From positions 1,178,001 through 1,242,000 of the forward strand of contig NZ_PDJJ01000001.1 in assembly GCF_002563715.1 (NCBI RefSeq): a stretch of DNA of 64,000 nucleotides, in the 5' to 3' direction. The stretch comes from Isoptericola jiangsuensis (lineage in GTDB: Bacteria; Actinomycetota; Actinomycetes; Actinomycetales; Cellulomonadaceae). This document shows, one piece after another, positions 11,079-27,173 of the stretch. Within the stretch, counting starts at the first letter, position 1. The number at the start of each line of letters is the position of its first letter. A model generated the notes under the pieces. The model was not told where the DNA came from. It ran no database searches and saw only the letters and a program-made list of their open reading frames with translations. Position numbers and translations under genes: made by a program.

Positions 11079-13160
11079 ATGCACCCTCAGACCTCTGCTG
11101 CCGGAGTCCCGGAACTGCTGGGCGAGCTCGTCGTCTCGATGCCGGACATCGCGGAGATCGCACACGTCGAGCGCCCGGTGGTGTCGACGTGGCGACGCCG
11201 GTACGCCGGTGCGGACCGGCCGTTCCCGGAGCCTGTGGCGGAAGGTGCGGATGGCTCACTCCGCTTCCGCGCCCTCGACGTCGCCGACTGGATCGACGCG
11301 ACCGGGCGGGGCAACAACCCCCACTTCCGCGCCGACGTCGCGCTGCGGGCCTCGTTCGCCGTGACGGACCCGGACCGCGCGCATCGGCTGCGGAACGGGC
11401 TGGCCGCGATGCTCTGCCTCAAGGACCTGGCCGAGCGGCCCCTCACCGAGCTCGACGACGGCGACCTCCTCGATCTCGCGGACGAGCTGGACCCCGAGGA
11501 CGCCTTCCTCTACTCAGAGGTGGCGGACCTGGGGCAGGACCTGCCCACCGCCGCCGCGCTCGCCGACCTTGCGGCCGAGGCCGCGTACACGCCGGGCAAT
11601 GCTGCGGAGGCTCTGGCCCACGGTGGCCACCGCGCTCGACGACGGATGCCGGCGTCGGCCCTCGTCCCGACGGCGCTGCACGTCGCGGCACGGGTGGCGG
11701 CGCAGATTCACGAGGACGGCCCGATCGCCGACCCGTACCCCGGTGCCGGCGACCTGCTGCGTGCCGTGCTCGCGGGTCACGACAGCGTCGTGCCGCCGGC
11801 GCTGCTCCCTGCGGGTCATCGCGCCGCGAGGCGTCGTCTGGTGGCGCACGGCTGGGAGGTCGGGACGCTCACGGTCGACGGAGTCACACCGGTCCCGCCG
11901 GGCGACGCCCTCGTGGTCGCACAGCTCCCGCCCACGGGGTCGCCGGAGCAGCCGGTGCTCGAGGTGCTCGGCCGGCTCGAAGAGCTGGTGCTCGGGCTGC
12001 ACGAGCACCAGCGGGCCGTCGTCGTCGGCCCGGCGAACGCCCTCGTCGACGCCCTGGAAGGCGACGCCGAGTCGGTCCGCTCCGGGTTGCTGCGCACCGA
12101 GAAGCTGCGTGCCGTCGTCCTGCTGCCTCCGGGCATGATCGTGGACCGCTCGCGGCAGCGACTCGCGCTGTGGATCCTCGGTGCGCCGCCGTCCGACGTC
12201 GCCATCGCCGAGCGCTGGACGATGGTCGCCGACCTGTCGGACCGCGCCGTGCCCGAGCTGCTCGACCCCGCGGTGGTCGAGGACCTGCTCATTGACGTCG
12301 CTGCCTCCATGGGCGGGCCGCGCGACGTGGCGTCGCACGCCTTTCGCTTCGCGCGGTTCGTCCGGATGGCGCCGCTGCTCGCCAGTGGCGGCAGCGTCGT
12401 CGCGGCAGGGCGCCCGACGATCGCCGGGGTCAGGGAGGACGACGGCGCGACCGCGCTGCGCCTCCGCGATCTCGCCGCGTCGCTCGACGGTGGTTCCCGC
12501 GCGCCGCTCGACCTCGCGGTCCGGCGGAGCCCGGCCACCGGGGTGCGGTCGGTACCCCTGTGGGCGCTCGCCGAGCAGCGCCTTCTCAAGAAGTTCGCCG
12601 GCAACCGGGTCGACCCCGACCTGATCGTCGACGCGCCCCCGCGGGACGCCACCCTGCTGCGCGTGGTGGGAGTCCCTGAGCTGACCGGGCAGCGGGAGTG
12701 GGGCACGCGCGGCGTCGACCGGCTCCGGCTGGTCGAGTCCCACCCGTCGGGACGGCTCACGGAGCCGGGCGACGTCGTGTTCACGTCCGCGCCGCACCCG
12801 GCCGCCGTCGTCGACCACGAGGGGTTCTCCGTGGTCGAGTCACCCGCGCAGATCCTGCGGGTCCTGCCGCCCGCACCAACGGCCGACGGCGGGAGCCCGG
12901 CCGCCGTCGTCGTGCCGGAGGTCCTCGCCCGCGACGTCGCCGCTCAGCCGCCCGGCGCCAAGTGGTGGCGGGCATGGGAGACGCGGCTGGTGCCTGCCGA
13001 CCAGGCCGGGGAGGCCGCACGCGTGCTGCGCGCGGTGCGGGAGCGCGCGGCGGCTGCGCGCCGGGAGCTGCGCGCGCTGGACGAGCTCGCCGGGACGCTG
13101 GCCGACGGCGTGACCGCGGGTGTCGTACGGATGCGCTTGGATGGGGGCGAACCCCTGTGA
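11079..13160 (+). CDS. HTH protein with degenerate N6-methylase and S-like domain
   Basis: 693 residues encoded directly before hsdM. Residues 17-45 (MPDIAEIAHVERPVVSTWRRRY) form a helix-turn-helix. Residues 200-400 follow the layout of an HsdM-type methylase, but the key motifs are broken: the SAM-binding DPxxGxG region reads DPYPGAGDLL near residue 218, and the catalytic NPP(F/Y) is AQLPPTG near 281. A fold-like continuation (VVVGPANALV...LLRTEKLRAVVLLPPG) supports homology. The C-terminal part (SGRLTEPGDVVFTSAP...) resembles an HsdS recognition domain, and the end is helical. It is therefore probably a catalytically dead regulator or specificity partner of the restriction system. Its stop is 14 nt before the chosen hsdM start. 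Confidence 0.75.
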   Translation: MHPQTSAAGVPELLGELVVSMPDIAEIAHVERPVVSTWRRRYAGADRPFPEPVAEGADGSLRFRALDVADWIDATGRGNNPHFRADVALRASFAVTDPDRAHRLRNGLAAMLCLKDLAERPLTELDDGDLLDLADELDPEDAFLYSEVADLGQDLPTAAALADLAAEAAYTPGNAAEALAHGGHRARRRMPASALVPTALHVAARVAAQIHEDGPIADPYPGAGDLLRAVLAGHDSVVPPALLPAGHRAARRRLVAHGWEVGTLTVDGVTPVPPGDALVVAQLPPTGSPEQPVLEVLGRLEELVLGLHEHQRAVVVGPANALVDALEGDAESVRSGLLRTEKLRAVVLLPPGMIVDRSRQRLALWILGAPPSDVAIAERWTMVADLSDRAVPELLDPAVVEDLLIDVAASMGGPRDVASHAFRFARFVRMAPLLASGGSVVAAGRPTIAGVREDDGATALRLRDLAASLDGGSRAPLDLAVRRSPATGVRSVPLWALAEQRLLKKFAGNRVDPDLIVDAPPRDATLLRVVGVPELTGQREWGTRGVDRLRLVESHPSGRLTEPGDVVFTSAPHPAAVVDHEGFSVVESPAQILRVLPPAPTADGGSPAAVVVPEVLARDVAAQPPGAKWWRAWETRLVPADQAGEAARVLRAVRERAAAARRELRALDELAGTLADGVTAGVVRMRLDGGEPL

Positions 13161-13174
13161 GGAAGGAACTACGA

Positions 13175-14794
13175 GTGCCACCGAGGACGAAGGCCCCCAC
13201 GCCGTCGGTCGCCACGGCGACCACCATGAAGGAGCTGAAGGACACGCTCTGGAAGGCGGCCGACAAGCTGCGCGGGTCGATGGACGCCAGCCAGTACAAG
13301 GACGTGATCCTGGGGCTCGTGTTCCTCAAGTACGTCTCGGACGCGTTCGCCGAGCGGCGCGAGGCGATCCTCGCCGAGTGTCTCGCCGACGGGCTGAGCG
13401 CCGAGGACGCCGAGCCGCTGCTCGAGGACGTCGACGAGTACCGCAGCGCCGGCGTGTTCTGGGTGCCGGAGCGGGCGCGGTGGGGGTACCTGGCCCAGCA
13501 CGCCAAGGGCCGGGTGGCGACGCTCGACGAGCATGAGGCGTCGATCGGCCAGCTCGTCGACGACGCGATGAGCCACATCATGGGGTCGAACCCGGCGCTC
13601 GCGGGCACGCTGCCCACGACGTTCAACCGGGACAACGTGGACCAGCGGCGGCTCGGCGAGCTCGTCGACCTGTTCTCCTCGGCGCGGTTCACGGGCGTCG
13701 GCGTGGACGGCGAGAAGGTCTCCCGGGCGCGCGACGTGCTCGGCGAGGTCTACGAGTACTTCCTCGGGAAGTTCGCCGCGGCCGAGGGCAAGCGTGGTGG
13801 CGAGTTCTACACGCCGCCGGGTGTGGTGCGCGTGCTCGTGGAGATGCTCGAGCCGTACGCCGGGCGCGTGTACGACCCGGCGTGCGGGTCGGGCGGCATG
13901 TTCGTGCAGGCCGAGAAGTTCCTCGAGCGGCACGGCGCGAACCCGCAGGCGATCAGCGTCGTCGGGCAGGAGCTCAACGAGCGCACGTGGCGCATGGCCA
14001 AGATGAACCTGGCCGTGCACGGGCTCACCGGGGACCTCGGGCCGCGCTGGGGCGACACGTTCGCCCGCGACCTGCACCCGGACCTGCAGGCCGACTACGT
14101 CATGGCGAACCCGCCGTTCAACATCAAGGACTGGGCGCGGGCCACCGACGACGCGCGCTGGACCTACGGCGTGCCGCCCGCGGGCAACGCGAACTACGCG
14201 TGGATCCAGCACATCCTGTCCAAGCTGGCGCCGGGCGGGTCGGCCGGCGTGGTGATGGCCAACGGCTCGATGTCCTCGAACTCCGGGGGAGAGGGCGAGA
14301 TCCGGGCCCAGCTCGTCGAGGCCGACCTCGTCTCGTGCATGGTGGCCCTGCCCACGCAGCTCTTCCGGTCCACGGGGATCCCCGTGTGCGTGTGGTTCTT
14401 CGCCAAGGCCAAGGGGGCCCGGGCCGGCGAGGTGCTCTTCATCGACGCCCGGAACCTCGGGCACATGGTCGACCGCGCCGAGCGGGCGCTGTCCGAGGAG
14501 GACATCGCCCGGATCGCCGGGACATACCACGCCTGGCTCGGGACTCCCTCGGCCGAGGGCGTCGAGTACGCCGACGAGGCCGGGTTCTGCTACTCGGCGA
14601 CGCTCGGCGAGATCAAGGACGCCGGGTATGCGTTGACCCCGGGTCGGTACGTCGGCGTGCCCGAGGTCGAGGACGACGGCGAGCCGATCGAGGAGAAGAT
14701 CGCGCGGCTGACGGGCGAGCTGTTCGCGCAGTTCGACGAGTCGGCGCGGCTGGAGAAGGTCGTCCGCGAGCAGCTCGGGAGGGTCCGTGGCTAA
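13175..14794 (+). CDS. hsdM: Type I restriction system methylase subunit HsdM
   Basis: 539 residues. The N-terminal helical domain begins KELKDTLWKAADKLRGSMDASQYKDVILGL..., typical of HsdM_N. The catalytic domain has YDPACGSGGMF (SAM binding, near residue 235) and ANPPFN (catalytic, near 312). It methylates adenine at the site chosen by HsdS and is needed for both protection and restriction. GTG 13175 is preferred because AAGGA lies 7 nt upstream; an in-frame GTG at 13157 overlapping the previous stop is an alternative. The end overlaps hsdS by 8 nt. Confidence 0.95.
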   Translation: MPPRTKAPTPSVATATTMKELKDTLWKAADKLRGSMDASQYKDVILGLVFLKYVSDAFAERREAILAECLADGLSAEDAEPLLEDVDEYRSAGVFWVPERARWGYLAQHAKGRVATLDEHEASIGQLVDDAMSHIMGSNPALAGTLPTTFNRDNVDQRRLGELVDLFSSARFTGVGVDGEKVSRARDVLGEVYEYFLGKFAAAEGKRGGEFYTPPGVVRVLVEMLEPYAGRVYDPACGSGGMFVQAEKFLERHGANPQAISVVGQELNERTWRMAKMNLAVHGLTGDLGPRWGDTFARDLHPDLQADYVMANPPFNIKDWARATDDARWTYGVPPAGNANYAWIQHILSKLAPGGSAGVVMANGSMSSNSGGEGEIRAQLVEADLVSCMVALPTQLFRSTGIPVCVWFFAKAKGARAGEVLFIDARNLGHMVDRAERALSEEDIARIAGTYHAWLGTPSAEGVEYADEAGFCYSATLGEIKDAGYALTPGRYVGVPEVEDDGEPIEEKIARLTGELFAQFDESARLEKVVREQLGRVRG

Positions 14795-15947
14795 TATCCA
14801 AGCTGGAGTGCTGGGCGATTTTTGCAGGTTCAGGGCCGGCGGACCTTTTCCTCAGAGTGAGCAAGGCAACAAATCTGGGGAAGTTCCGTTCATCAAGGTA
14901 AGCGATCTCTCGAAAAATGGGAACTCGCCCGCCATTGTCAATGCCAACAATTGGCTTCATGGGGACCAGTTGGAGCGGCTTCGCCCAGTACTAGCGCCAG
15001 CAGGGAGCGTTGTTTTCGCAAAGATCGGTGAGGGTCTTAAGGCAGAGCGACTGAGGCGATTGTCGCGCGATACGGCGATCGACAACAACTTAATGGTGGC
15101 AGTTCCGAACGAAGAGCGAGTTGTCCCAGGCTTCCTGTTTTACTACTTGCAGACAGTCGGAATCTCAAACTTGGCTGTTGGCAGCGCACTCCCGTATCTC
15201 AAGCAGTCCGACCTGAGTGACCTCCCTTGCCAGCTCCCAAGCCTCGGCGTCCAGGCGGCGATCGCCGACGTCCTGGGCGCCCTCGACGACAAGATCGCGG
15301 CCAACACCCAGCTCGCCACCACCGCCGACGAGCTCGCTGGAGCCCTACTACGGAGCCACGTCGATCCCACCGCTCGGACAACGCTCACCGACATTGCCGA
15401 GGTCATCATGGGCTCGTCCCCGACCGGCGAGACCTTGAACGAGGAAGGCGAAGGCGTCCCCTTCTTCCAGGGCGTGAGGGACTTCGGGTTTCGCTTCCCG
15501 GCGCGGCGGGTCTGGACCACAAGCCCGACTCGGTTCGCCGAAGAGGCGGATGTGCTCGTCAGTGTTCGAGCGCCGGTCGGATCGATCAATGTTGCCTCCG
15601 AGCGGTTGTGCGTCGGCCGAGGCCTCGCAGCGGTCCGGGCGCGAGATGGCCGCCAGGCGACTCTTCTCCATCTGTTGCGGCATGTGCCCGACGTCTGGCT
15701 GCCCTTCGAAGCCGAGGGGACTGTCTTCGGATCCATCAACCGTGCTCAGTTGCACGCTCTGGACCTCCCAGTTGTGCCAAGAGACGTGGCTGGGAGTCTG
15801 GAGTCCGAAATCTCCGCCTTGGAGAGCCGGATCCGCTTCGCTGTGGTTGAGAACCAGAAGCTTGCTGCCACGCGCGACGCCCTCCTGCCCGCCCTCATGT
15901 CCGGCAAGCTCCGCGTCGAGGGGGCCGCAGAGGTGGCCGGGCTGTGA
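14787..15947 (+). CDS. hsdS: Type I restriction specificity subunit HsdS
   Basis: 386 residues with the usual two half-subunits: a first target-recognition domain (about 1-140), a conserved spacer helix (LGALDDKIAANTQLATTADELA, read across 168-190), a second recognition domain (about 195-340) and a final spacer ending LAATRDALLPALMSGKLRV. It determines the DNA sequence methylated and cut. The first recognition domain has strikingly low GC for this genome (roughly 50 percent from 14795 to 15230), while the spacer and second domain return to normal, which suggests the domain was swapped in recently. Eight-nt overlap with hsdM. Confidence 0.93.
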   Translation: MANIQAGVLGDFCRFRAGGPFPQSEQGNKSGEVPFIKVSDLSKNGNSPAIVNANNWLHGDQLERLRPVLAPAGSVVFAKIGEGLKAERLRRLSRDTAIDNNLMVAVPNEERVVPGFLFYYLQTVGISNLAVGSALPYLKQSDLSDLPCQLPSLGVQAAIADVLGALDDKIAANTQLATTADELAGALLRSHVDPTARTTLTDIAEVIMGSSPTGETLNEEGEGVPFFQGVRDFGFRFPARRVWTTSPTRFAEEADVLVSVRAPVGSINVASERLCVGRGLAAVRARDGRQATLLHLLRHVPDVWLPFEAEGTVFGSINRAQLHALDLPVVPRDVAGSLESEISALESRIRFAVVENQKLAATRDALLPALMSGKLRVEGAAEVAGL

Positions 15948-16118: not shown

Positions 16119-16966
16119 ATGACGACGGCTCCGCCGGTGCGTTCGCGGGGCACCCGGCGCTACACGAAGCCGGCGCTCGACCACGAGGACCTCGTCGACC
16201 GGATGATCGACCGCGGTCTGGTCGTCCCCGATCGCGACCGCACGCTGCGCTACCTGAGGCACATCGGCTACTACCGGTTCTCCCCGTACCTCATCCCCTT
16301 CCGCGTCACGCCGTCGAGCGAGAAGTTGCGCGACGGCACGTCGTTCGACCAGGTCCTCGACCTCTACGTCTTCGACCGAGAGCTCCGACTGCTGGTCATG
16401 GACGCGATCGAGCGCATCGAGGTCGCAGTCCGGGCTGCGTTGACAGACTCCATGTCGCTGCAGCACGGCGGCCCCTTCTGGTACACGGATCCGCAGCACT
16501 TCCGCGACCGGGAGAAGCACAGGAAGTCGCTCGCCATCGTCCGCAAGGTGTGTCGGGGCCAGGTCCGGGGCCGCGAGGACTCCCTGGTCGATGACCTCTC
16601 CCACCGGTCACTTCCTGGCTGTGGACCTACGTGCGGGTGCGCAACATCTGTGCCCACCACGGCCGGCTCTGGAACGTCGGGCTCGGCGTCTACCCGGCGA
16701 TCCCCAAGCCGTCGACCATCGAATGGCTCAGCGACGCGGAGGTCCTCACCGCTGTCCCGGACCGCCGGAAGCGGCTGTACCCGGTCCTCGCGTCCCTGCA
16801 GAGCGTGCTCGGCGCCGTCTCCCCGCGGTCGTCGTGGGCTCAGCGGCTCAGCGACCTCCTCGACAAGCACCCTGACGTGCCGCTGCGGGGCATGGGCATT
16901 CCCGCCGACTGGCGGGACGACACCTTCTGGGCGTCCCGCCTGACACCGACGACGAACGGACGGTGA
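16119..16966 (+). pseudogene. Broken Abi_2 (AbiD/AbiF-type) abortive infection gene
   Basis: The first 165 residues are a clear Abi_2 start: YTKPALDHEDLVDRMIDRGL, then LRYLRHIGYYRFSPYLIPFR, FDRELRLLVMDAIERIEVAVRAAL. After about 16610 this frame becomes nonsense. The expected C-terminal signature SWLWTYVRVRNICAHHGRLWN appears at about 16613-16675 in another frame and continues to a stop at 16966. The roughly 50 residues that normally join the two parts are missing, so an internal deletion with a frame change has inactivated the gene. The ATG has GGGAG 7 nt upstream. Intact homologues kill or arrest infected cells. Confidence 0.85.
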
Positions 16967-17753: not shown

Positions 17754-18944
17754 GTGTCGTCGGATGCGAGCTGGCCGTCGTTCGGGACCGAGCTCCTCGA
17801 CTGGGAGTCCTCGGACAGCGAGTACGGTCCCCGCGCGGGCAGGAGCCTCCGTCGTGGGCCGTACGAAGCGGCCGTCCCACCGCGTATCGCCCGCGCCGCG
17901 CTCGCGCTCGACGGTCCGACGGCCGCGCTGGTCGCCGAGGCGAGCGCCGAGGTCGCCCGACTGGACGGCGAGTCCCTCGGATCGCTGATGTCGTTCGCTT
18001 CCTTGCTGCTCAGGACGGAAGCTGCCAGCTCGTCGCAGATCGAGAACCTGACCTCGTCGCCGACGGCCATCGCGCTGGCGGAGCTGGGTCGGCGCGGACG
18101 AGCCAACGCCGACGAGATCGTCGCCAACGTCAGCGCCATGACACAGGCGCTCGACGTCGCCGACCGGCTGGACGCCGACGCGATCCTGACGATGCACCAG
18201 GTCCTGATGCGTGACCACATGCCCGGCGCCGCCGGAGCGTGGCGGGACGCCGCCGTGTGGATCGGCGGCTCGGCTCGCAGCCCTCACGGGGCGGACTACG
18301 TGGCGCCGCGAAGCGACCAGGTTCCGGACGCGATGGAGGATCTTGCCGCCTTCATCGCACGCGACGACCTGCCGGCGCTCGTCCAGGCGGCCGTCACGCA
18401 CGCGCAGTTCGAGAACATCCATCCCTTCCCGGACGGCAACGGCCGGACCGGACGAGCGCTCATGCACGCCCAGCTCCGCCACGCCGGCCTGACGCGGCAT
18501 GTCGTCGTGCCGATCTCGGCCGGGCTCCTCACCGAGACCGAGCGGTACTTCGCCGCGCTGACCGCCTTTCGCTCCGGGAATCCTGTCCCGATCGTCACCG
18601 AGGTGTGCGAGGCGGTCTTCCCTGCGCTGCAGAACGCGCGCCAGCTGATGAGCGACGTCTCCGACGCGCGCGGACGGTGGTCGGACGCCATCCGGGCACG
18701 CCGTGGCGCGGCCGCCCGGCGTCTTGCAGACTTCCTCGTGGAGCGGCCGGTCGTCGACTCGCGCCTCGCGGCGGAGCTGCTGGGTGTCACGACGGCGAAC
18801 GCCCAGGTGGCGATCGACCGCCTTGTTGAGGACGGCGTGCTCGAGCAGATCGGCCGAGGTGCCCGCGACCGCGTCTGGCAGGCGGTCGAGGTGATCGAGG
18901 CGATGGAGCGCTTCGCCGACCGAGCGCACCACCGAGGCCTCTGA
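17754..18944 (+). CDS. Fic family AMP-transferase with C-terminal HTH
   Basis: 396 residues. An N-terminal Fic_N region contains SSQIEN near residues 93-98, fitting the (S/T)xxxE(G/N) inhibitory helix of class II Fic proteins. The active loop is HPFPDGNGRTGR near residue 222, complete with the catalytic His. The C-terminal part (about 320-385) is a winged helix (LAAELLGVTTANAQVAIDRLVEDGVL). Expected activity is AMP transfer to a protein target, held in check by the inhibitory Glu. The GTG at 17754 is almost leaderless, with an operator-like repeat directly before it. It sits among defence genes and converges with the exonuclease gene (4 bp apart). Confidence 0.92.
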   Translation: MSSDASWPSFGTELLDWESSDSEYGPRAGRSLRRGPYEAAVPPRIARAALALDGPTAALVAEASAEVARLDGESLGSLMSFASLLLRTEAASSSQIENLTSSPTAIALAELGRRGRANADEIVANVSAMTQALDVADRLDADAILTMHQVLMRDHMPGAAGAWRDAAVWIGGSARSPHGADYVAPRSDQVPDAMEDLAAFIARDDLPALVQAAVTHAQFENIHPFPDGNGRTGRALMHAQLRHAGLTRHVVVPISAGLLTETERYFAALTAFRSGNPVPIVTEVCEAVFPALQNARQLMSDVSDARGRWSDAIRARRGAAARRLADFLVERPVVDSRLAAELLGVTTANAQVAIDRLVEDGVLEQIGRGARDRVWQAVEVIEAMERFADRAHHRGL

Positions 18945-18948
18945 GGAG

Positions 18949-20601
18949 TCACCCCTCGCCGTGCAGAGCCCTCTCATAGGCCTCGGCCACGGCCCGGGGG
19001 AGTCGGCCGCGGTCGCCCACCTCATGCCCGTTCTCTCGGGCCCAACGGCGGACGGCCGCGGGGTTCGGAACGGTGGATCCGGCCGACGCGGGCTGCGGCG
19101 TGGCCCGAACCTGGGCTCCCGCTGCCTCTGGCCGCACCGGCGATGCCTCGACCGCGGTGGCGGCCGGCTGGAGGTGGGCGAGCAGCACCTCGAAATGGTC
19201 GGGGTGGACCGTCCGGAGATCGAGGTCGGCAGCCTTCGCCGCCTTGCCGCCGGCGAAGGAGCCATCGGTGACCAGCATCGCGGTCGTGCGCGAGACGCTG
19301 CTCATGACACGGACCCCGAGCTCCTCGGCACGCTGCTCCAGCCGAGCGCGCTGGGCGTCGCCGCACCCGGTGAAGACGACCTTGTCGCCGACCCGCAGGG
19401 GTTCGCCGTGCGACCAGCCGACGGGCAGAGGACCGAGGCCGGCGCTCAGCCGTGCCGCGCGGGCCTCGTCGGCATGGCCGATGAGACGGCGAACGGTCGC
19501 CGGCTGCACCTGGAGGAGCTCCGCGATCGTCGAGAGCTCCGACCGCTCGTCACGGGAGACGTGGCCGTCGTCGAGCGCCCGGTGTGCCAGTGCCGTGACG
19601 AACGCCAGGTGGGCCGCCGCGACCTCGTCGGGCGCGAGCCCGTACGCCTCGATCAGGTCGGCGAGTGCTCCGGCCTCCGACGCGGACACGACGCCGTCCT
19701 CCAGGACCTCCAGCAGCAGCTCGAGGTAGGGGGTCGTGCCCACAGGAGCGCCGTCGTCGAGCAGCTCCGTCAGACCCAACGCGGTGAGCTGTTGGACCAG
19801 CGGAGCCTGCTTGGGTCGGGGCGGGGTCACCCTCCGCGGCCGGTTCCTCGGGGCCCCTGCCGCTCCGGGCAGCATGGTGAGCGGCGCTCGCGACGGCCCC
19901 TCGGGCCAGGTGAACGCTCGGGTGTCGACTCGGGCGCGGTCGAGCTCGGCATGCACGGGGACGCGCGGCATCGTCAGGTATCGGTTCATCAGCCGCCCCG
20001 TCGCGCGGGCGTCGCCGAGGGCGGAATGCGCGTCCGTCAGCCGGACGTCCGCCGCAGCACAGCAGTCCGCGAGCCGCCGCCGCTCGAGGTGCGGCAGGTA
20101 GTGGTGGCTTCCCTGGAGCGTGCAGTAAGCGGGCAGGAACGGCAGATCCCATCCGCTGCGCTGGTACTCGGCGCGCAGGAACGCGAGGTCGAACCGGGCG
20201 TTGTGCGCGACGACGGTGCTCCCACCGAGCAGGAGCGCCACGTCGCGCGACTGCTCCCGGAAGAGCGGGGCCGGGGCCACGTCACCATCGGTGATGCCGT
20301 GGACGTGGGTCGCGCCGACCGGGCCCTCCGGGTTGAAGCGCGTCGACCATTCGTCGATGACCGAGCCCTCGTGGTCGAGCCGCACGACGGCCAGCTCGAG
20401 GATGCGGTCCTGTCGAGGGCTCAGGCCTGTGGTCTCGACGTCGATGACGGCGTAGGCGGCTTCGGCCGGCTTCCTGTCAGCCGGATTCCTGTCGACCGGT
20501 TGCGGAACCGGCGCGTCCGGCTGCGCCGACTTCCTCGTCCCGAAGAGTCGTCCGAGGATCCCCACTGCTGCACCAGCGCCTTCCGCCTCTCGGGGCCGCA
20601 T
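18949..20601 (-). CDS. DEDDh exonuclease with BRCT and Lsr2 C-terminal domains
   Basis: 550 residues with an unusual domain chain. Residues 50-210 are a DnaQ-like 3'-5' exonuclease: VIDVETTGL (Asp54, Glu56), HNARFDLAFL, HSALGDARATG (the final His and Asp). Residues about 285-375 form two helical repeats resembling TerB. Residues about 395-470 are BRCT-like (GDKVVFTGCGDAQRARLEQ). The last 40 residues (NPAAVRRWARENGHEVGDRGRLP) match the AT-hook-like DNA-binding end of Lsr2. Lsr2 targets AT-rich foreign DNA, so the tail may steer the nuclease to invading DNA; that is inference. ATG 20601 has weak upstream GGGG; GTG 20565 is an alternative. Probably third gene after the EVE-HNH and glycosylase-like genes. 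Confidence 0.85.
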   Translation of the reverse strand: MRPREAEGAGAAVGILGRLFGTRKSAQPDAPVPQPVDRNPADRKPAEAAYAVIDVETTGLSPRQDRILELAVVRLDHEGSVIDEWSTRFNPEGPVGATHVHGITDGDVAPAPLFREQSRDVALLLGGSTVVAHNARFDLAFLRAEYQRSGWDLPFLPAYCTLQGSHHYLPHLERRRLADCCAAADVRLTDAHSALGDARATGRLMNRYLTMPRVPVHAELDRARVDTRAFTWPEGPSRAPLTMLPGAAGAPRNRPRRVTPPRPKQAPLVQQLTALGLTELLDDGAPVGTTPYLELLLEVLEDGVVSASEAGALADLIEAYGLAPDEVAAAHLAFVTALAHRALDDGHVSRDERSELSTIAELLQVQPATVRRLIGHADEARAARLSAGLGPLPVGWSHGEPLRVGDKVVFTGCGDAQRARLEQRAEELGVRVMSSVSRTTAMLVTDGSFAGGKAAKAADLDLRTVHPDHFEVLLAHLQPAATAVEASPVRPEAAGAQVRATPQPASAGSTVPNPAAVRRWARENGHEVGDRGRLPRAVAEAYERALHGEG

Positions 20602-20662
20602 TGATCAACCCCGCGAGGATGTCACGGACATCCGCCCGGTGTGCCAGGCGTCCGGGGTGAAA

Positions 20663-21430
20663 TCAGGCGCAGGCGTCGCACGATCCGGTCGCAGGCAACG
20701 TCATGAAGCAGCTCGGGCAGACGGCTGGTACGGGTGGGGCAGCCGACGTCGCCGGACGCACACGACGACGTGGGGCGGGCGGCGTGGCGGGTCGCACCTC
20801 GCCGCGCAGCGCTGCGTGGACCAGCCCGCGGTAGACGGAGATCTGCCCACGGTGGACGCTCGCGTTCGCCCTCGACCAGTGCGGCACCTGCAGGATCGTC
20901 AGCGGCCCGGAGGCGGCGATCCCCCGGGAGATCGTTCCGGCCCACGCGGTGATGCGTCGGTAGGACTTCACCCCGAAGCAGATGATGCGCGGTGCCGCCT
21001 CGCCGGTCGCGCCGAGCAGGTGCATCTGGCTGATGAGCGAGGAGATCTCGGCATCGATGTTGTGCTCGTGGACCTTGCGGATGTCGCTCTCGCGCTGCTC
21101 GTGCAGGTCGGTCATGTAGGCGCCCCACACCTCGGTGCCGCGGAAGGCCTCGGCCAGGAAGTGGTCGTTGTGGAACGCGCTCGTGTGGAAGTTGGCCCAG
21201 GGGACGGAGGCTCCTGCGGGGGAGACCGGACGACCCGCGGAATCTCGCGCCACCGAGGACTGGTTGAGGCCGACCAGAACGTCGCGCGCGTGGAGGACGT
21301 CATCCAGCGCAGGGCCGACGGGCAGACAGAGGTCGCTGCGGTCGTCGAAGGGCTCGGTCTGCGTGGCGGCGCCCCACACGGCCCACGACGCGTCGAAGCG
21401 AAACGCGGACATCGTGTCCAGGAGGCTCAA
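20663..21430 (-). CDS. Uracil-DNA glycosylase superfamily-like protein
   Basis: About 255 residues. The pattern fits the UDG fold: VGLNQSS in the position of motif A, WANFH, RGTEVWGAYMTDL, IICFGVKSYRRI as the core strand, and ILQVPHWSRAN where motif B (HPS-type) is expected. The canonical catalytic Asp of motif A is absent, so the chemistry may differ. The C-terminus carries CPSC...CDAC, a likely small zinc ribbon. TTG 21430 (GGTGGA upstream) keeps the family-like N-terminus; ATG 21412 is an alternative. The gene lies between the EVE-HNH nuclease and the exonuclease on the same strand, suggesting action on damaged or modified DNA. Family assignment is moderate. Confidence 0.55.
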   Translation of the reverse strand: MSLLDTMSAFRFDASWAVWGAATQTEPFDDRSDLCLPVGPALDDVLHARDVLVGLNQSSVARDSAGRPVSPAGASVPWANFHTSAFHNDHFLAEAFRGTEVWGAYMTDLHEQRESDIRKVHEHNIDAEISSLISQMHLLGATGEAAPRIICFGVKSYRRITAWAGTISRGIAASGPLTILQVPHWSRANASVHRGQISVYRGLVHAALRGEVRPATPPAPRRRVRPATSAAPPVPAVCPSCFMTLPATGSCDACA

Positions 21431-21494
21431 CGTGGTTCCACCGTCACCGCCCCCAGCGGACGTGTACCTCGGGTCGAGGTCACCCGGGGCAGAC

Positions 21495-22313
21495 TCAACT
21501 GATCTGACCGGCGGCCTCGACGCGATGGCGCGCAAGGCGCCGGGGGCTCGGACGTTCGGCGGGGTCGTCCGGAAGCCGGAGCCTCTGGCCGTGGAGCTTG
21601 CGGTACTCGCTCTTGCGGATGTCGGGGTGGAGGACGACCCGGGAGTCCTCGTCGATCCACAGCAGCCCGCTGTCGAACAGGTTGTGGATGTCGGCGCGGA
21701 GCAGCAGGCCGTTCTCGAGGATGTTCGTGGACGCGCCGTCGTACCGGTCGATGTGCGCGGCCTGGAGGGTGGCGGGGACGTCCGAGCCGGTGACGGCGCA
21801 GCGGCCGGCGTAGGCCGTGAGGAGTGTGGCGCGGAACAGCGCCTGCCCCTGCCGTGCGGTGACCAGCTGCTCCCGGCGGATCCTGCCCCGGCCGGCCGCG
21901 TCGTCGACCGCGTCGACGTCGACGCGGGCGTGCAGCTGGGCGATCTCGTCGGGTGTCGCCTTGCGCATCGACTGGACCCGGGTGGTGGTCTCGACGACGA
22001 GCGGTTCGGCGGCGAGCCGACGCGACTCCTCGCTGTCGAAGTCGACGCCGAACCACAGGGCGCCCTCGTCGTCCGGCGCGACGGACGACGTCACCACCCC
22101 GACACCGACGACGGCTGCGACGGGCAGGGACTCCCGGACCCAGACGTGGTCCCCGACCGTGAAGTCCGTGTATCGGCGCGGAAGGTGCCAGTGCAGTTCG
22201 CGCTCGACCTCGGCGCTCCGGAACAGGTCGCGCGGGGCGATCGTCCGGCCGTCGTCGGTCTCGTAGCCCCACGTCTCCGTGCGCGGGTTCACCGGGTAGA
22301 GCCAGTCGGTCAT
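21495..22313 (-). CDS. EVE/PUA-like domain fused to HNH endonuclease
   Basis: 272 residues. The N-terminal 100 or so (YTDFTVGDHVWVRESLP, then VVGVGVVTS) resemble an EVE/PUA-like pocket, a fold that reads modified bases in several restriction enzymes. The C-terminal part is an HNH_2-type nuclease: CAVTG, AAHIDRYDGASTNILENGLLL, ADIHNLFDSGLLWI. This order matches modification-dependent (type IV-like) restriction proteins. The ATG at 22313 has AAGGAG 5 nt upstream, and a 194-bp divergent region separates it from the next gene. It is the first gene of the leftward trio. The EVE call is by pattern only; the HNH is secure. Confidence 0.8.
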   Translation of the reverse strand: MTDWLYPVNPRTETWGYETDDGRTIAPRDLFRSAEVERELHWHLPRRYTDFTVGDHVWVRESLPVAAVVGVGVVTSSVAPDDEGALWFGVDFDSEESRRLAAEPLVVETTTRVQSMRKATPDEIAQLHARVDVDAVDDAAGRGRIRREQLVTARQGQALFRATLLTAYAGRCAVTGSDVPATLQAAHIDRYDGASTNILENGLLLRADIHNLFDSGLLWIDEDSRVVLHPDIRKSEYRKLHGQRLRLPDDPAERPSPRRLARHRVEAAGQIS

Positions 22314-22507
22314 GTCACTCCTTCGCGATCCACGGGCGAGGCAAGTCTGTCGTACCCCCGTCGGACCGGTCGGAGCGTGCGGGGTGAAATCGCACGAACC
22401 TGCGGTGACCATCAAAGAGGCCGGCACCGGAACGCTAGGGTGCACGACGACCGAGATCGCGGGCCGCGGCTCCGACTCGGCAGTGACGAGCGATCCGGGA
22501 GTCGACG

Positions 22508-23752
22508 ATGGATGACCTGCAGCTGATCAGTGACGGCAACGGGCTGGCCGTCATCGGGAACCCGGGGGCGGTCGACCGATTCCTTACTTCGCAGGGTCTC
22601 CCGTCCCAGGATCTCGGACTGCCGCGGCTCGGGACGGTGCTGGCCGGCGGTGCGGGGACCGCTCAGGTGGCGTCGGACGTCGTCGCGACGTCCGGGCGGT
22701 GGGTGCAGCTGACCAAGGAGTCGGCGGAGATGGCGAACAAGCTCGGCCTGATGAAGGGCTCGAGCAGCGAGGTCGCGCGCGCCGTCGTGACGGACAAGGG
22801 CAAGATCAAGCACATCGTCGAGTTCGCCAGGACGCCCGGGTCCTTCATCGCGAATCCTGCCCGACTCGCCGGAGCCGCGGGACTCATGGCCCAGCTGGCG
22901 ATGCAGCAGGCCATGGACGAGATCACGGACTATCTCGCCGTGATCGACGAGAAGGTCGACGACGTGCTCCGCGCCCAGAAGGACGCCGTCCTCGCCGACA
23001 TGATCGGTTCCGGGCTCGTGATCGACGAGGCGCTGACCGTCCGCGAGCACACCGGGCGCGTCTCGGAGACGACCTGGTCGACGGTGCAGGCCGAGAAGAA
23101 GGCGATCGCCACGACGCAGGCGCACGCGCTGCGGCGACTCGACGCGCTCGCCGAGAAGCTGGAGCGCAAGTCCAAGGTCGTCGACCTCGCGAAGGTCGCG
23201 TCGGAGGCGGTGACCGAGGTCCAGGAGTGGCTCGCCGTCCTCGCGCGATGCTTCCAGCTCCAGGACGCGCTGGGCGTCCTCGAGCTCGATCGTGTCCTCG
23301 ACGCGGCCGACCCCGACGAGCTCGACCGGCATCGTCGAGGCCTTGCGAAGGCCAGGCAGGATCGCCTCGAGCTCATCGAGCGAAGCACCGTCCGCCTGCT
23401 GGAACGCATGGACGCCGCCGCCGGCAGGGCCAACACCAAGGTGCTGCTCAACCCGACGGCCTCACCCCGCGTCGTGCGGTCGAGCGAGCGGGCCGCCACC
23501 GCCGTCGGTGAGCTCCACGACCGGTTGGGCATCGAGTCGGCGCGGACGTCGACGACGGAGCGACGGTGGGTCGAGGCCGTGGGGGACGTCCGGGACAAGG
23601 TGGTCGAGACAGGGTCCGAGGGGATCGGAGCCGCGCGTCGCGGAGGCAGTCACGCGCTGGGCCGGGCGAAGGCGGTGACCGGCAAGCTCTCCGACGACCT
23701 CGCCGAGCGGGTTGCGAGGCGCAGGGCGAACGACGACGCCGGGGATGCCTGA
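22508..23752 (+). CDS. Unknown helical protein in the defence island
   Basis: 414 residues with no family I can name. The first 60 are mixed, with a Gly/Ala stretch (LAGGAGTAQVASDVV). From about residue 115 it is almost all helix: an apolar helix (ARLAGAAGLMAQLAMQQAM), then DEITDYLAVIDEKVDDVLRAQKD and long coiled-coil-prone segments to the end, with a basic C-terminus. There is no signal peptide. The ATG has GGGAG 8 nt upstream, and a short hairpin follows the stop. It is divergent from the EVE-HNH gene and upstream of hsdR. A membrane-associated or toxin-like role is possible but only speculation. Confidence 0.65.
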   Translation: MDDLQLISDGNGLAVIGNPGAVDRFLTSQGLPSQDLGLPRLGTVLAGGAGTAQVASDVVATSGRWVQLTKESAEMANKLGLMKGSSSEVARAVVTDKGKIKHIVEFARTPGSFIANPARLAGAAGLMAQLAMQQAMDEITDYLAVIDEKVDDVLRAQKDAVLADMIGSGLVIDEALTVREHTGRVSETTWSTVQAEKKAIATTQAHALRRLDALAEKLERKSKVVDLAKVASEAVTEVQEWLAVLARCFQLQDALGVLELDRVLDAADPDELDRHRRGLAKARQDRLELIERSTVRLLERMDAAAGRANTKVLLNPTASPRVVRSSERAATAVGELHDRLGIESARTSTTERRWVEAVGDVRDKVVETGSEGIGAARRGGSHALGRAKAVTGKLSDDLAERVARRRANDDAGDA

Positions 23753-23801: not shown

Positions 23802-23873
23802 CGTGGCTACCGGCATCGCCCGCAGAAGTCCGCGACGATGTAGTCGTTCGTGACGACCACCAGGGGAGACACC

Positions 23874-26800
23874 GTGCACCACCCGAGCGAGGCCGACTGG
23901 GAGCAGCTCGCCCGCGAGCACCTTGCCGAGTTCGGCTGGGCGCCGCTGGAAGGCAAGCAGATCGCACCCGGCGCCACCTCCGCCGTCGGACACCCGGGGT
24001 ACACGGCGCTGGGCGAGCAGCCGCAGCGCGAGTCGTGGACCGAGCTCGCGATCCCGTCCCGCATGAGGGCCACGCTGCGACGGCTGAACCCGGAGGTGCC
24101 GCGCGAGCACCTCGACCAGGCCCTCGCCGAGATCCTGCGACCGCGCTCGCAGGATGCGATCACCGAGAACCACCGCATCCACTCCTACCTCACCGGCGGC
24201 TACCGGCTCAGCTACACCGCGGACGGTGCCGAGCATCACCCGACGGTACGGCTCGTCTCCACCCACGAGCACGAGAACGAGTGGCTCGTCGTCAACCAGG
24301 TGACCGTGATCGACGGCGACATCGAGCGTCGGTTCGACCTCGTCCTCTACCTCAACGGCATGCCCGTGGTGATCGTCGAGCTGAAGAACGCCGGAAGCAG
24401 GCAGTCCGACGTCGCCGCCGCGCACGCCCAGCTCGCCACCTACGTCCGTGAGCTGCCGACGGCCTTCCGCTTCTGCGTGCTCACGCTCGTCAGCGACGGC
24501 GTGGTGGCCAAGTACGGCACACCGTTCACCCCGCTCCACCACTACGCGCCCTGGAACGTGGACGACGACGGCCGCGTCATCGGGCCCGACGGCGGCACGC
24601 AGGCGGACCTCCACCTCGTGGACGACGACGGTCTGCCCGGTCGGGTTGAGCCCGCCACGCCGCTCGAGATCACCCTCTCCGGCCTGTTCAACCCGGAACG
24701 GTTCCTGCAGCTGCTCCGTGGCTTCGTCGCCTTCGACGCCGGCGACGACGGCCTGGCCAAGAGGGTCGCCAAGCCGCACCAGTACTTCGCGGTGACCAAG
24801 GCGATCGGCGAGACCGTCCGGGCCGTGGACGGCGACGGCAAGGCCGGCGTCGTCTGGCACACGCAAGGCTCGGGCAAGTCGATGGAGATGGAGCTGTACG
24901 CCGCGGCCGTCGCACGTCACCCGGCACTGCTCAACCCGACGATCGTCGTCATCACCGACCGCACCGACCTCGACGACCAGCTCTACGAGACGTTCCAGCG
25001 CTCCGAGCTGCTGCCCGAGGCGCCGCGCCAGGTGATGCGCCGCGCGGAGCTGCGCGACGAGCTGGCGAACCGGCGCACGGGCGGCATCTACTTCACCACG
25101 CTGCAGAAGTTCGGACTCACCCGAGCCGAAAAGGAAGCCGGGGCCAAGCACCCCGTGCTGTCAGACCGGCGCAACATCGTGCTCATCGTGGACGAGGCGC
25201 ACCGCAGCCACTACGGAGACCTCGACGGCTACGCCTGGCACCTGAAGAACGCCCTGCCGCACGCGACCCTCATCGCCTTCACCGGCACGCCGATCTCCGA
25301 GCACGACCGGGACACCGAGGCCGTGTTCGGCGACGTCATCGACGTGTACGACCTCACCCGGGCCGTGGCCGACGGCGCCACCGTGCCGGTGTTCTTCGAA
25401 TCCCGCCTCGTCAAGGTCGGCTTCCCCGACGGCGTCGGCTCCGAGGAGATCGACGCCGCCGCGGACGAGGCCACAGTCGGGCTCGACGACGCCGAACGGG
25501 ACCGCATCGAACGGTCCGTCGCGGTGGTCAACGCCGTCTACGGCGCCCCCGCGCGCCTCGACGCACTCACGCAGGACCTGCTCGACCACTGGGACGCCCG
25601 GCGGGACGCGGTGGCAGAGAGCGTCCGGCCTGCGTCGGACCTGGAGCGAGACGACGCGCACTCCCCGGGCGCGCCCGGCAAGGCGCTCGTCGTGTGCTCC
25701 ACCCGGGAGATCTGCGCCCGGCTCTACGAGCACCTCGTCGCACGGCGGCCCGAGTGGCACACCGACGAGCTGACGACCGGCAAGATCAAGGTTCTGTACT
25801 CGGGGACACCACAGGACCCCGAGCACATCGCAAGACACGTGCGCCGCCCCAGCGAGAACGCGGCACTCAAGAAGCGGCTCAAGGACCCGGACGACGAGCT
25901 CGAGATCGTCATCGTCAACGACATGCTCCTCACGGGCTACGACTCGCCCTCGCTGCACACCCTCTACCTCGACCGACCACTGCGCGGTGCGCTGCTCATG
26001 CAGACGCTTGCCCGCGTGAACCGTACGTTCCGGGGCAAGGACTCCGGGCTGCTCGTCGCCTACGCGCCGGTCGCCGAGAACCTCGCGGCGGCGCTCGCCG
26101 AGTACACCGTGCGCGACCAGGCCGAGAAGCCCGTGGGGCAGGACCTCGACGCCGCCGCGAAGGTGGCGCGCGAGCACGTGCGCCAGGTCGCCGCACTGGT
26201 GGATTCCAGCGGCTGGCGCGAGGAGCTGGCCGCACGGCGCGGCCAGCCACGTCGGCTGATCCATGCGGCGATGCGCGCCGTCAACCATCTGCGCAGCCCG
26301 CGGACACCCGGGAACCAGGTCGGGCCGGACCAGGAGTCGCTCGGCGACGCCTTCCGCCGGCTCGCACCCGCGCTGCGGCGGTCCTGGGCGCTCGCGGGTC
26401 GGCACGACTCGCTGGCCGGGCTCGCTGACGACGTGCGCTTCTACGAAGAGGTGCGCACATGGATGGGCAAGATGGACGCCGAGGAGCGTCAGGCGGCCGG
26501 CGAGCCCATCCCCGACGAGGTGCAGCGGCTCCTCAACCAGCTCACGGCCACCGCCGTGCACGCCGGAGACGTGGTGGACATCTACGAGGCCGCCGGGCTC
26601 GAACGACCACGGCTCGACCAGATCGACGAGGCCTTCCTGGCCCGCGCGCAGGCGGCACCGAACCCGCAGGTGGCGATCGAGGCGCTCCGCTCGCTCATCC
26701 TGGCCGAGTCCCGCAGGTCCACCGAGGGCAACCTCGTGCGGCGTCGGATGTTCTCCCAGCGTCTCGCCGAGCTCATGAACCGCTACACCAACGCGAACCT

Positions 26801-27173
26801 GACCTCGGCCGAGATCATCACCGCACTGGTGGAGATGGCCCAGGACGTCGCGGCGGAGGCGTCCCGCGGCGAACAGTTCGACCCGCCGCTCGGGCACGAC
26901 GAGCTCGCGTTCTACGACGCCGTCGCCACGAACGAGTCCGCCGTCGAGCTCCAGGGCGACGCGAAGCTCGCCGAGATCGCCAGAGAACTCGTCCGGGTCA
27001 TGCGGACCAACGAGACGGTCGACTGGACCGTGCGCGACGACGTCCGAGCCAAGATGCGCGCCTCCATCAAGCGGCTGCTCATCAAGCACAAGTACCCGCC
27101 GGACAAGCGGCAGGACGCGATCATCCTGGTCATGGACCAGATGGAGGCCCTGGCGACGCGCCGAGCGGCCTGA
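23874..27173 (+). CDS. hsdR: Type I restriction endonuclease subunit HsdR
   Basis: 1099 residues. The N-terminal nuclease region has RFDLVLYLNGMPVVIVELKN, giving the D...ExK active site near residue 169. The translocase follows: HTQGSGKSMEM (Walker A, near 330), VDEAHRSHYGD (near 438), FTGTPI, and later NDMLLTGYDSPSLHTLYLDRPLRG. The C-terminus is helical, as expected for HsdM contact. It pumps DNA and cuts far from the site when the target is unmethylated. GTG 23874 has AGGGGAG 6 nt upstream; the upstream GTG at 23850 lacks a site. It lies 7.9 kb from hsdS, with unrelated defence genes between. Confidence 0.95.
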   Translation: MHHPSEADWEQLAREHLAEFGWAPLEGKQIAPGATSAVGHPGYTALGEQPQRESWTELAIPSRMRATLRRLNPEVPREHLDQALAEILRPRSQDAITENHRIHSYLTGGYRLSYTADGAEHHPTVRLVSTHEHENEWLVVNQVTVIDGDIERRFDLVLYLNGMPVVIVELKNAGSRQSDVAAAHAQLATYVRELPTAFRFCVLTLVSDGVVAKYGTPFTPLHHYAPWNVDDDGRVIGPDGGTQADLHLVDDDGLPGRVEPATPLEITLSGLFNPERFLQLLRGFVAFDAGDDGLAKRVAKPHQYFAVTKAIGETVRAVDGDGKAGVVWHTQGSGKSMEMELYAAAVARHPALLNPTIVVITDRTDLDDQLYETFQRSELLPEAPRQVMRRAELRDELANRRTGGIYFTTLQKFGLTRAEKEAGAKHPVLSDRRNIVLIVDEAHRSHYGDLDGYAWHLKNALPHATLIAFTGTPISEHDRDTEAVFGDVIDVYDLTRAVADGATVPVFFESRLVKVGFPDGVGSEEIDAAADEATVGLDDAERDRIERSVAVVNAVYGAPARLDALTQDLLDHWDARRDAVAESVRPASDLERDDAHSPGAPGKALVVCSTREICARLYEHLVARRPEWHTDELTTGKIKVLYSGTPQDPEHIARHVRRPSENAALKKRLKDPDDELEIVIVNDMLLTGYDSPSLHTLYLDRPLRGALLMQTLARVNRTFRGKDSGLLVAYAPVAENLAAALAEYTVRDQAEKPVGQDLDAAAKVAREHVRQVAALVDSSGWREELAARRGQPRRLIHAAMRAVNHLRSPRTPGNQVGPDQESLGDAFRRLAPALRRSWALAGRHDSLAGLADDVRFYEEVRTWMGKMDAEERQAAGEPIPDEVQRLLNQLTATAVHAGDVVDIYEAAGLERPRLDQIDEAFLARAQAAPNPQVAIEALRSLILAESRRSTEGNLVRRRMFSQRLAELMNRYTNANLTSAEIITALVEMAQDVAAEASRGEQFDPPLGHDELAFYDAVATNESAVELQGDAKLAEIARELVRVMRTNETVDWTVRDDVRAKMRASIKRLLIKHKYPPDKRQDAIILVMDQMEALATRRAA

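Follow-up and report, generated by a model that had tools for sequence, protein, structure and literature searches.

Immunity by base excision is already known. Brig1 is described as an alpha-glucosyl-5-hydroxymethylcytosine DNA glycosylase (PMC11078745), and Brig3 as a 5-hydroxymethylcytosine DNA glycosylase (PMC13160076). According to excerpts of the first report, residues Y121 and E147 of Brig1 are 26 positions apart, and E147 stands where the uracil-DNA glycosylase (UDG) of S. tokodaii has N82, which in turn follows F55 by 27 positions; the substitutions Y121A, E147A and E147Q affected immunity, and the double mutant lost excision (PMC11078745). Excerpts of the second give F101 and D127 for Brig3, also 26 apart, together with N50 in motif 1, and there both D127A and D127N prevented immunity (PMC13160076). 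From these descriptions, D127 of Brig3 appears to be the same site as E147 of Brig1. The locus compared with these systems here lies in Isoptericola jiangsuensis, on contig NZ_PDJJ01000001.1, in a stretch of 64,000 nucleotides (positions 1,178,001 to 1,242,000, called the window below) that is part of a 4.04-Mb genome in a single contig. It consists of three adjacent genes, the middle one of which encodes a candidate base-excising glycosylase.

18949–20601, minus strand: exonuclease of DEDDh type with TerB-like, BRCT and Lsr2 DNA-binding parts, matching the PADLOC candidate PDC-S48
20663–21430, minus strand: middle gene, a UDG-superfamily protein of 255 amino acids, assigned by family alignment, profile alignment (hhalign) and the model of a relative
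21495–22313, minus strand: HNH nuclease of 272 amino acids, with HNH_2 and an HNH part of VcaM4I type

The original prediction read these three leftward genes as one new defence module against modified DNA, located in a defence island. The genes are real: they are co-directional and head-to-tail on the minus strand, separated by 64 nucleotides (HNH gene to middle gene) and 61 nucleotides (middle gene to exonuclease gene), and lie within a type I restriction locus, with fic to one side of them and hsdR to the other. The island setting is likewise borne out, with hsdM, hsdS, an Abi_2 gene, fic and hsdR around the three. The explanation favoured here, at a probability of about 0.6, is that they are separately acquired neighbours in a defence hotspot, and that the middle protein is a Brig-like glycosylase acting against phage DNA with modified cytosines. 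Its family is unrecognised by the four libraries scanned, and differs from Brig1 at both of the positions named in the excerpts of PMC11078745.

Fold and active site of the middle protein

The original prediction assigned a uracil-glycosylase-like fold from motif pattern, and a UDG fold rather than some other one is now very probable, given a profile match, the structural model of one relative and the Pfam match of another; the tests of the fold rest mainly on relatives. A 15-member family profile aligned to a two-sequence profile of family-4-type UDGs with a probability of 50.7% (hhalign, E 1.6e-4; reversed control, E 0.5), and to an eight-sequence profile of family-5-type UDGs with a probability of 27.3% (E 6.6e-4), the labels family 4 and family 5 being ones that we presume to apply. 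Reversed profiles and three unrelated profiles gave 0.1–0.2%. The UDG profiles were built from 13 of the 14 loci of one UDG-gene search. The relative at locus L049 (loci are given L numbers and genomes G numbers) matches Pfam UDG (PF03167) at E 0.0014, with 19.2 bits against a cut-off of 24.3; PF03167 does not match the window protein, so that neither of the two reaches the curated cut-off. For the relative at L099, an AlphaFold2 model has a predicted local distance difference test (pLDDT) of 81.7 and a predicted template-modelling score (pTM) of 0.83. The 16 best Foldseek matches of this model in the PDB all belong to the UDG superfamily; they are chains of 11 entries, with SMUG1 first and UNG and vaccinia D4 included, and ranks 1–5 have probabilities of 0.93–0.98.

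The presumed active site was read from an alignment of the window protein with 19 of its 21 relatives (L128 and L129 were left out), numbered from the ATG at 21412. F75, H76, G97, T101 and D102 are conserved in all 20 sequences and Y99 in 19 of them; N50 is present in 18 and H178 in 17 of the 19 sequences that have a letter there. We take N50 and H178 to be the catalytic-site polar residue of UDG motif 1 and the C-terminal His motif, respectively. The family signature is SWAxW, GLNxS, NFH and GAYMTD, and two codons within it bear on the base that may be recognised.

21188–21190, minus strand: codon of F75 in motif NFH, the aromatic that probably stacks on the base, 27 residues ahead of D102
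21107–21109, minus strand: codon of D102 in motif GAYMTD, aligned by hhalign with the Asn of family-4-type UDG

Since the profile alignment pairs GAYMTD with YxTNAVKHF of family-4-type UDG, D102 stands where UDGs have Asn. A UDG of E. coli carrying the corresponding kind of change, N123D, is reported to excise cytosine (PMC3989344). A cytosine-type target is thus predicted for the middle protein because the base-reading Asn of UDGs is replaced by an invariant Asp, and it would be a modified cytosine because excision of plain cytosine should harm the host.

The protein resembles family-4 UDGs and SMUG1 in its fold, in the motif GLNxS/G, in the spacing between aromatic and base-reading residue and in the C-terminal His motif. 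It differs from them in having Asp for the base-reading Asn and in falling under the Pfam UDG cut-off. No invariant Cys column exists among the 20 aligned sequences, whereas family-4 UDGs presumably follow a pattern of Cys ligands for a 4Fe-4S cluster, which the middle family lacks. A 4Fe-4S cluster is mentioned for entry 4ZBY in the excerpts of PMC11078745.

The likeness to Brig1 and Brig3, as far as those excerpts describe them, is that of a UDG-like single-domain glycosylase found in defence islands near restriction genes, in whose base pocket an acidic residue stands: E147 in Brig1, the essential D127 in Brig3 and, presumably, D102 here. An aromatic residue precedes the acidic one by 26 positions in the Brigs and by 27 here, an equivalence drawn through the UDG profile alignment and not through an alignment of Brigs. 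The motif-1 Asn, N50, is an additional point in common with Brig3. However, Brig1 has Tyr121 and Glu147 in place of the invariant Phe and Asp, and in Brig3 the motif-1 Asn lies about 50 residues from the stacking aromatic, as opposed to 25 here and about 13 in some relatives. Because the invariant residues differ from those of Brig1 and the motif spacing differs from that of Brig3, the middle family is probably another branch, set apart by the residues and spacing described for the Brigs and not by sequence alignment. Even so, it may turn out to be one of the 42 homologues of Brig1 in PMC11078745.

Spread, mobility and likely role of the middle family

The TTG start at 21430 is supported, as its reading as Met gives MSLLDTMSAFRFDASWAVW, which resembles MDLLQSLDAYRHEASWAVW of two Agrococcus relatives. 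The core comprises about residues 1–205, with a Cys tail at the end. The protein has no match in NCBIfam, PADLOC, Pfam or PHROGs (limits 0.1, 0.1, 1 and 0.1), nor any PDB sequence match of weight, and seven relatives have none in NCBIfam. Searches of an open literature library on the trio, the exonuclease architecture and Brig homologues gave no title describing the family.

20663–20806, minus strand: C-terminal linker and Cys4 mini zinc ribbon (CPSCFMTLPATGSCDAC), a tail common in the bacterial family

The zinc ribbon had been predicted as a part of the glycosylase. It is real, but as a specific glycosylase part it is rejected, since it is a common tail and is absent from the aligned relatives. 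When 221 genomes of the bacterial family were searched, own genome included, the last 47 residues of the middle protein gave matches in 130, and all of these end in the tail except the gene itself and a weak match in G008 (residues 56–103). The tail has the form CPTCFMTLPATGVCDxCG after a Pro/Ala-rich linker. At 31 such loci (L002–L032, L003 being the gene itself) it mostly belongs to one family of ~145 amino acids, with L014, L028 and L032 different, and it resembles a shared C-terminal tag.

Relatives of the core were found with a tail-less query by tblastn on plasmids (two haloarchaeal ones, at E 4–6, were kept for their motifs) and with profile searches. The family is rare: it occurs in 8 of 396 genomes of the order, own genome included, and in only that genome among 296 of the phylum. 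A GTDB scan gave six loci, one already known, and profile scans of IMG/VR yielded three contigs, on one of which the encoded protein is identical to that of L096. No relative was found in the phages collection, nor in the viral contigs searched with single proteins or the HNH pair. The total is 21 distinct loci outside the window, two of which, L049 and L051, are 95% identical. They span Actinomycetota, Bacillota, Alphaproteobacteria, one Phycisphaerae and one deltaproteobacterial assembly, as well as viral contigs and, where the matches are weaker, plasmids of haloarchaea. The Halococcus relative (L036, 7983–9026) has an extra ~130 C-terminal amino acids with a very weak BglII-like match (Pfam, E 0.11), a possible glycosylase-nuclease fusion. 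This guess by eye has no PDB support, and such a fusion is not claimed.

Seven of the 21 loci are on plasmids, one relative (L096/L100) lies between apparent phage tail genes in a prophage-like region, and two (L099, L116) are on contigs of the viral collection. Because these relatives occur on plasmids, in a phage-like region and on viral contigs without the partners, the middle gene fits a cargo gene travelling alone. In L116 (4980–6809), the gene that begins 3 nucleotides after the glycosylase-like gene has a weak PD-(D/E)XK match; as PDDEXK_4 is under its cut-off at E 0.0047, this neighbour is not taken as a nuclease.

Chosen neighbours at the 21 loci were also scanned for restriction genes, whose background rate was not determined, and at least 5 of the loci have one. 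A type ISP restriction gene is the next gene upstream in L093, a type III restriction gene is 4.2 kb away in L046, an Mrr gene adjoins the relative in L049 and L051 (the latter also with an MmeI-like gene), and an Mrr-cat/ResIII helicase is 1.6 kb away in L116. Additionally, the relative in L036 is followed by AbiEi/AbiEii genes, and a BrxA-family gene lies at a distance of 6.3 kb.

A role for the middle protein can be proposed on this basis. Phages whose cytosines are modified would escape the surrounding type I restriction enzyme. From the DNA of such phages the glycosylase would flip out the modified base, which is predicted to derive from cytosine, and would cut its N-glycosidic bond, and the abasic sites left behind would stall phage replication or lead to DNA breaks. 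The same layering behind restriction is argued for Brig1 by its authors, in the excerpts of PMC11078745. The HNH protein, if it is modification-dependent, would form a parallel barrier, probably as a type IV-like nuclease, and the exonuclease, probably a 3'-5' DNA-trimming enzyme, may trim ends; each of the two would act on its own. A wider proposal, slightly less likely than not, is that the middle protein founds an unlisted, mobile family of defence glycosylases of UDG fold, in which a natural Asn-to-Asp change would have produced specificity for modified cytosine independently of Brig1 and Brig3. Such a family would serve as a second layer behind several types of restriction, and might be used by some phages and plasmids against competitors.

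Several points weigh against the view of the middle protein as a Brig-like defence glycosylase beside two unrelated neighbours. The middle-family profile has no match to UNG (hhalign probability 0.2%). The Foldseek E-values are all above 1e-3, and the query-normalised template-modelling scores (TM-scores) of the 16 matches are 0.34–0.47. The model of the window protein itself is of lower quality (pLDDT 68, pTM 0.71), and its PDB matches are headed by KaiC (E 3.7e-3, TM 0.28); in the same search, UDG or SMUG1 is at ranks 3, 4, 5 and 9, with TM-scores of 0.38–0.43 that are the highest among the best 50. In the viral library the first matches of this model are non-UDG proteins, and UDG-named proteins come at ranks 9, 10 and 20. 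The conserved residues belong to motifs that were used to find members, so that their conservation is partly selection, and L049 and L051 count as one case. At least 10 of the 21 loci (L033–L035, L037, L047, L094, L097, L098, L128 and L129) have no restriction gene in sight. Finally, the short co-directional gaps would permit one transcript of the three genes.

The alternative that survives best, although it is unlikely, is a host repair enzyme that clears the cell's own DNA of a damaged base, for instance a pyrimidine that has been deaminated or oxidised. Most enzymes of the UDG superfamily are repair enzymes, and several relatives lie among apparent housekeeping genes (L047, L094, L097). Against a repair function, the gene is present in so few genomes of the order and in a single one of the phylum set, and it occurs on plasmids and viral contigs. 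The genome also holds two other UDG-family genes, and the base-reading position has Asp instead of Asn. Slightly less probable again is a decayed or moonlighting UDG fold, which, as a sensor or an inhibitor, would bind to modified DNA but leave the glycosidic bond intact. The loss of the motif-1 Pro (Q in the window) and the lack of the motif-1 Asn in L047 are compatible with decay, but the presumed active-site residues, namely the Asn, Phe, His and Asp counted above, are among the most conserved in the family.

The exonuclease and HNH genes, and the trio as a unit

For the exonuclease, the predicted architecture of a DEDDh domain with BRCT and an Lsr2 tail is confirmed by Pfam matches above the cut-offs (RNase_T 3.4e-24, BRCT 2.9e-5, Lsr2 DNA-binding 5.5e-14), and a TerB-like stretch lies just under its cut-off (1.2e-4). 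The residues that we take to be the DEDDh set are apparently intact by eye. An alternative start, GTG at 20565, is possible. The PADLOC candidate PDC-S48 matches residues 48–477 at E 2.2e-131; the match covers most of the protein, and no difference from PDC-S48 appears by sequence. The term PDC-S48 does not occur in the papers returned by one literature search.

Relatives of the exonuclease were sought in the 396 order genomes with its C-terminal 336 residues, the best 5 first-look candidates per genome being scored. At least 47 genomes have a match at E<=1e-8, and at least 10, own genome included, reach 150 bits. The strong set comprises 11 loci from 9 other genomes, with 7 of the 11 from 5 genomes of one genus (g63). 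When these loci and the window were compared (the exonuclease frame being uncalled in L076), the recurring neighbours were those of synteny within g63, members of a commonly found dehydrogenase-type family, and island genes present in both the window and G146, a genome of the same genus: fic (89% identical), an 80-amino-acid hsdR remnant, DUF4230 and CHAD. The remnant (L074, 3053–3295) is a frame that matches residues 686–744 and 1050–1107 of the window hsdR, near fic and the exonuclease gene. The G146 exonuclease, 68% identical to that of the window, is at a contig edge, and its upstream side is unreadable. L075, too, has a Fic protein, distantly related (29%) and encoded 4.2 kb away from the exonuclease.

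The third gene had been predicted to encode a base-sensing EVE/PUA-HNH nuclease, of which the HNH half holds (HNH_2, 4.2e-11, Pfam) and the EVE/PUA half is not confirmed. Among solved structures the HNH part is closest to 6YEX (E 4.1e-7 for the single sequence, 1.7e-9 for a two-sequence profile), which is the EVE-HNH endonuclease VcaM4I (PMC7897488, in excerpt). The match covers the HNH part only, and whereas VcaM4I is an EVE-HNH protein, the N-terminal domain here is of unproven type. Neither Pfam EVE nor any other Pfam family matches the N-terminal 120 residues. Against six N-termini that look EVE-like by eye, hhalign gave a weak match with a probability of 10.6% (E 0.0029, 37 columns); of these six, one matches Pfam EVE (L085, E 0.0062, under the cut-off). 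An EVE domain in this N-terminus is possible. A phosphorothioate-dependent HNH nuclease was rejected, with NCBIfam PT-DNA_restrict at 46.3 bits against a cut-off of 180.

The HNH protein has matches at E<=1e-5 in at least 94 of the 396 order genomes (best 6 candidates per genome scored). Among the matches listed, the only full-length relative beyond the gene itself is in G165 (48–49%), and the others match from residue 99 or later. In six relatives (L083 and L085–L089; for example, L087 6870–9711) the HNH gene, with an N-terminus that is EVE-like by eye, directly follows a gene of ~620 amino acids, which in all five of the six scanned is a Schlafen-group-3 helicase (PF09848, E 1.8e-81 or better). 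Helicase and HNH gene thus form a recurrent two-gene unit there, whereas the window HNH gene has no such helicase.

The idea that the three genes form a conserved module did not hold when their co-occurrence was checked, as they are not neighbours in the other genomes examined. By tblastn (E<=1e-3), no exonuclease or HNH match is present in the 21 middle-gene loci (341,521 bases); at 16 of these loci the same search recovered the middle gene (a 17th match, in L128, was elsewhere), and it can miss distant relatives. Conversely, none of the 11 strong exonuclease loci has a middle or HNH match by tblastn, and the middle-family hidden Markov model matches neither these loci nor the HNH locus L073. 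Neither partner adjoins the HNH gene at the locus of the sole full-length HNH relative found in the 396 genomes. Among the 396 genomes of the order, all three genes occur only in the genome of the window, and G146 has the exonuclease with no middle-gene or HNH match anywhere in its genome. A weaker DEDDh-BRCT exonuclease (34–36% identity) is found 2,503, 3,248 and 2,171 nucleotides from a gene with a matching HNH domain in L083, L084 and L085, respectively. L083 and L084 were picked since both genes had appeared on one contig, and L085 was chosen solely on account of its HNH gene. By eye, the HNH protein of L084 has a different N-terminus. Among the 6 HNH loci that were chosen irrespective of proximity (L085–L090), 1 has such an exonuclease. 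This link without a glycosylase may reflect chance, shared islands or a real pairing, and its background rate was not determined.

Across 18700–22700, a single terminator-like hairpin was found (shuffle mean 0.6), at 21420–21406, inside the start of the middle gene, and none in either intergenic gap of the three genes. A single three-gene operon newly assembled in this lineage, with the HNH protein sensing an odd base, the glycosylase excising it and the exonuclease degrading from the resulting end, is very improbable: the shared direction, the short terminator-free gaps, the plausible action of each part on DNA and the nearby exonucleases (2.2–3.2 kb) of L083, L084 and L085 favour it, and a one-off operon is compatible with the comparative data, but a second member is missing from every middle-family, strong exonuclease and full-length HNH locus, the G146 exonuclease persists without the other two, and the exonuclease-HNH proximity is seen in one of the six loci chosen irrespective of it.

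The surrounding locus and what the family means

The fic gene is convergent with the exonuclease gene and downstream of the trio, with hsdM and hsdS further left; on the other side, a gene of 414 amino acids is divergent from, and upstream of, the HNH gene.

12698–14794, plus strand: hsdM of the surrounding type I system (HsdM_N 2.8e-28, N6_Mtase 2.4e-108)
14787–15947, plus strand: hsdS (Methylase_S 8.1e-16, Pfam; PADLOC Specificity_I)
17754–18944, plus strand: Fic protein, SoFic-like (Fic 9.7e-23, Pfam; SoFic 4.5e-68, PADLOC)
22508–23752, plus strand: gene of 414 amino acids between the HNH gene and hsdR, with no Pfam match above cut-off
23850–27173, plus strand: hsdR (PADLOC REase_I 1.9e-228; HSDR_N and SWI2_SNF2, Pfam)

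The hsdM coordinates are those of the longest frame; HsdM_N starts at residue 180, which places the true gene start further in. Upstream of hsdM, an open reading frame of 693 amino acids (11079–13160) has no match in Pfam, NCBIfam or PADLOC. The Abi_2 gene (16119–16966) looks split, as its frame covers positions 1–90 of the 184 in the profile and the last 13 positions are in another frame, at 16631. The 414-amino-acid gene has matches in 31 of 198 order genomes, own genome included, mostly near full length and at 30–63% identity. None of nine other loci has an hsdR relative within about 1.5 kb of it, and in Agrococcus KRD186 (L046) a relative of it is near the type III system and the middle-gene relative.

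The tempting reading of this locus as a three-part module is not borne out by the neighbourhood data. What remains is the middle family. Base-excising immunity, as represented by Brig1, Brig2 and Brig3, has been recognised only recently as a form of defence and is thinly sampled, and a further family in which the specificity residue can be read, present in bacteria, on plasmids, on viral contigs and probably in archaea, would give a handle on which phage bases are attacked. It is also a source of candidate enzymes with specificity for a modified base.

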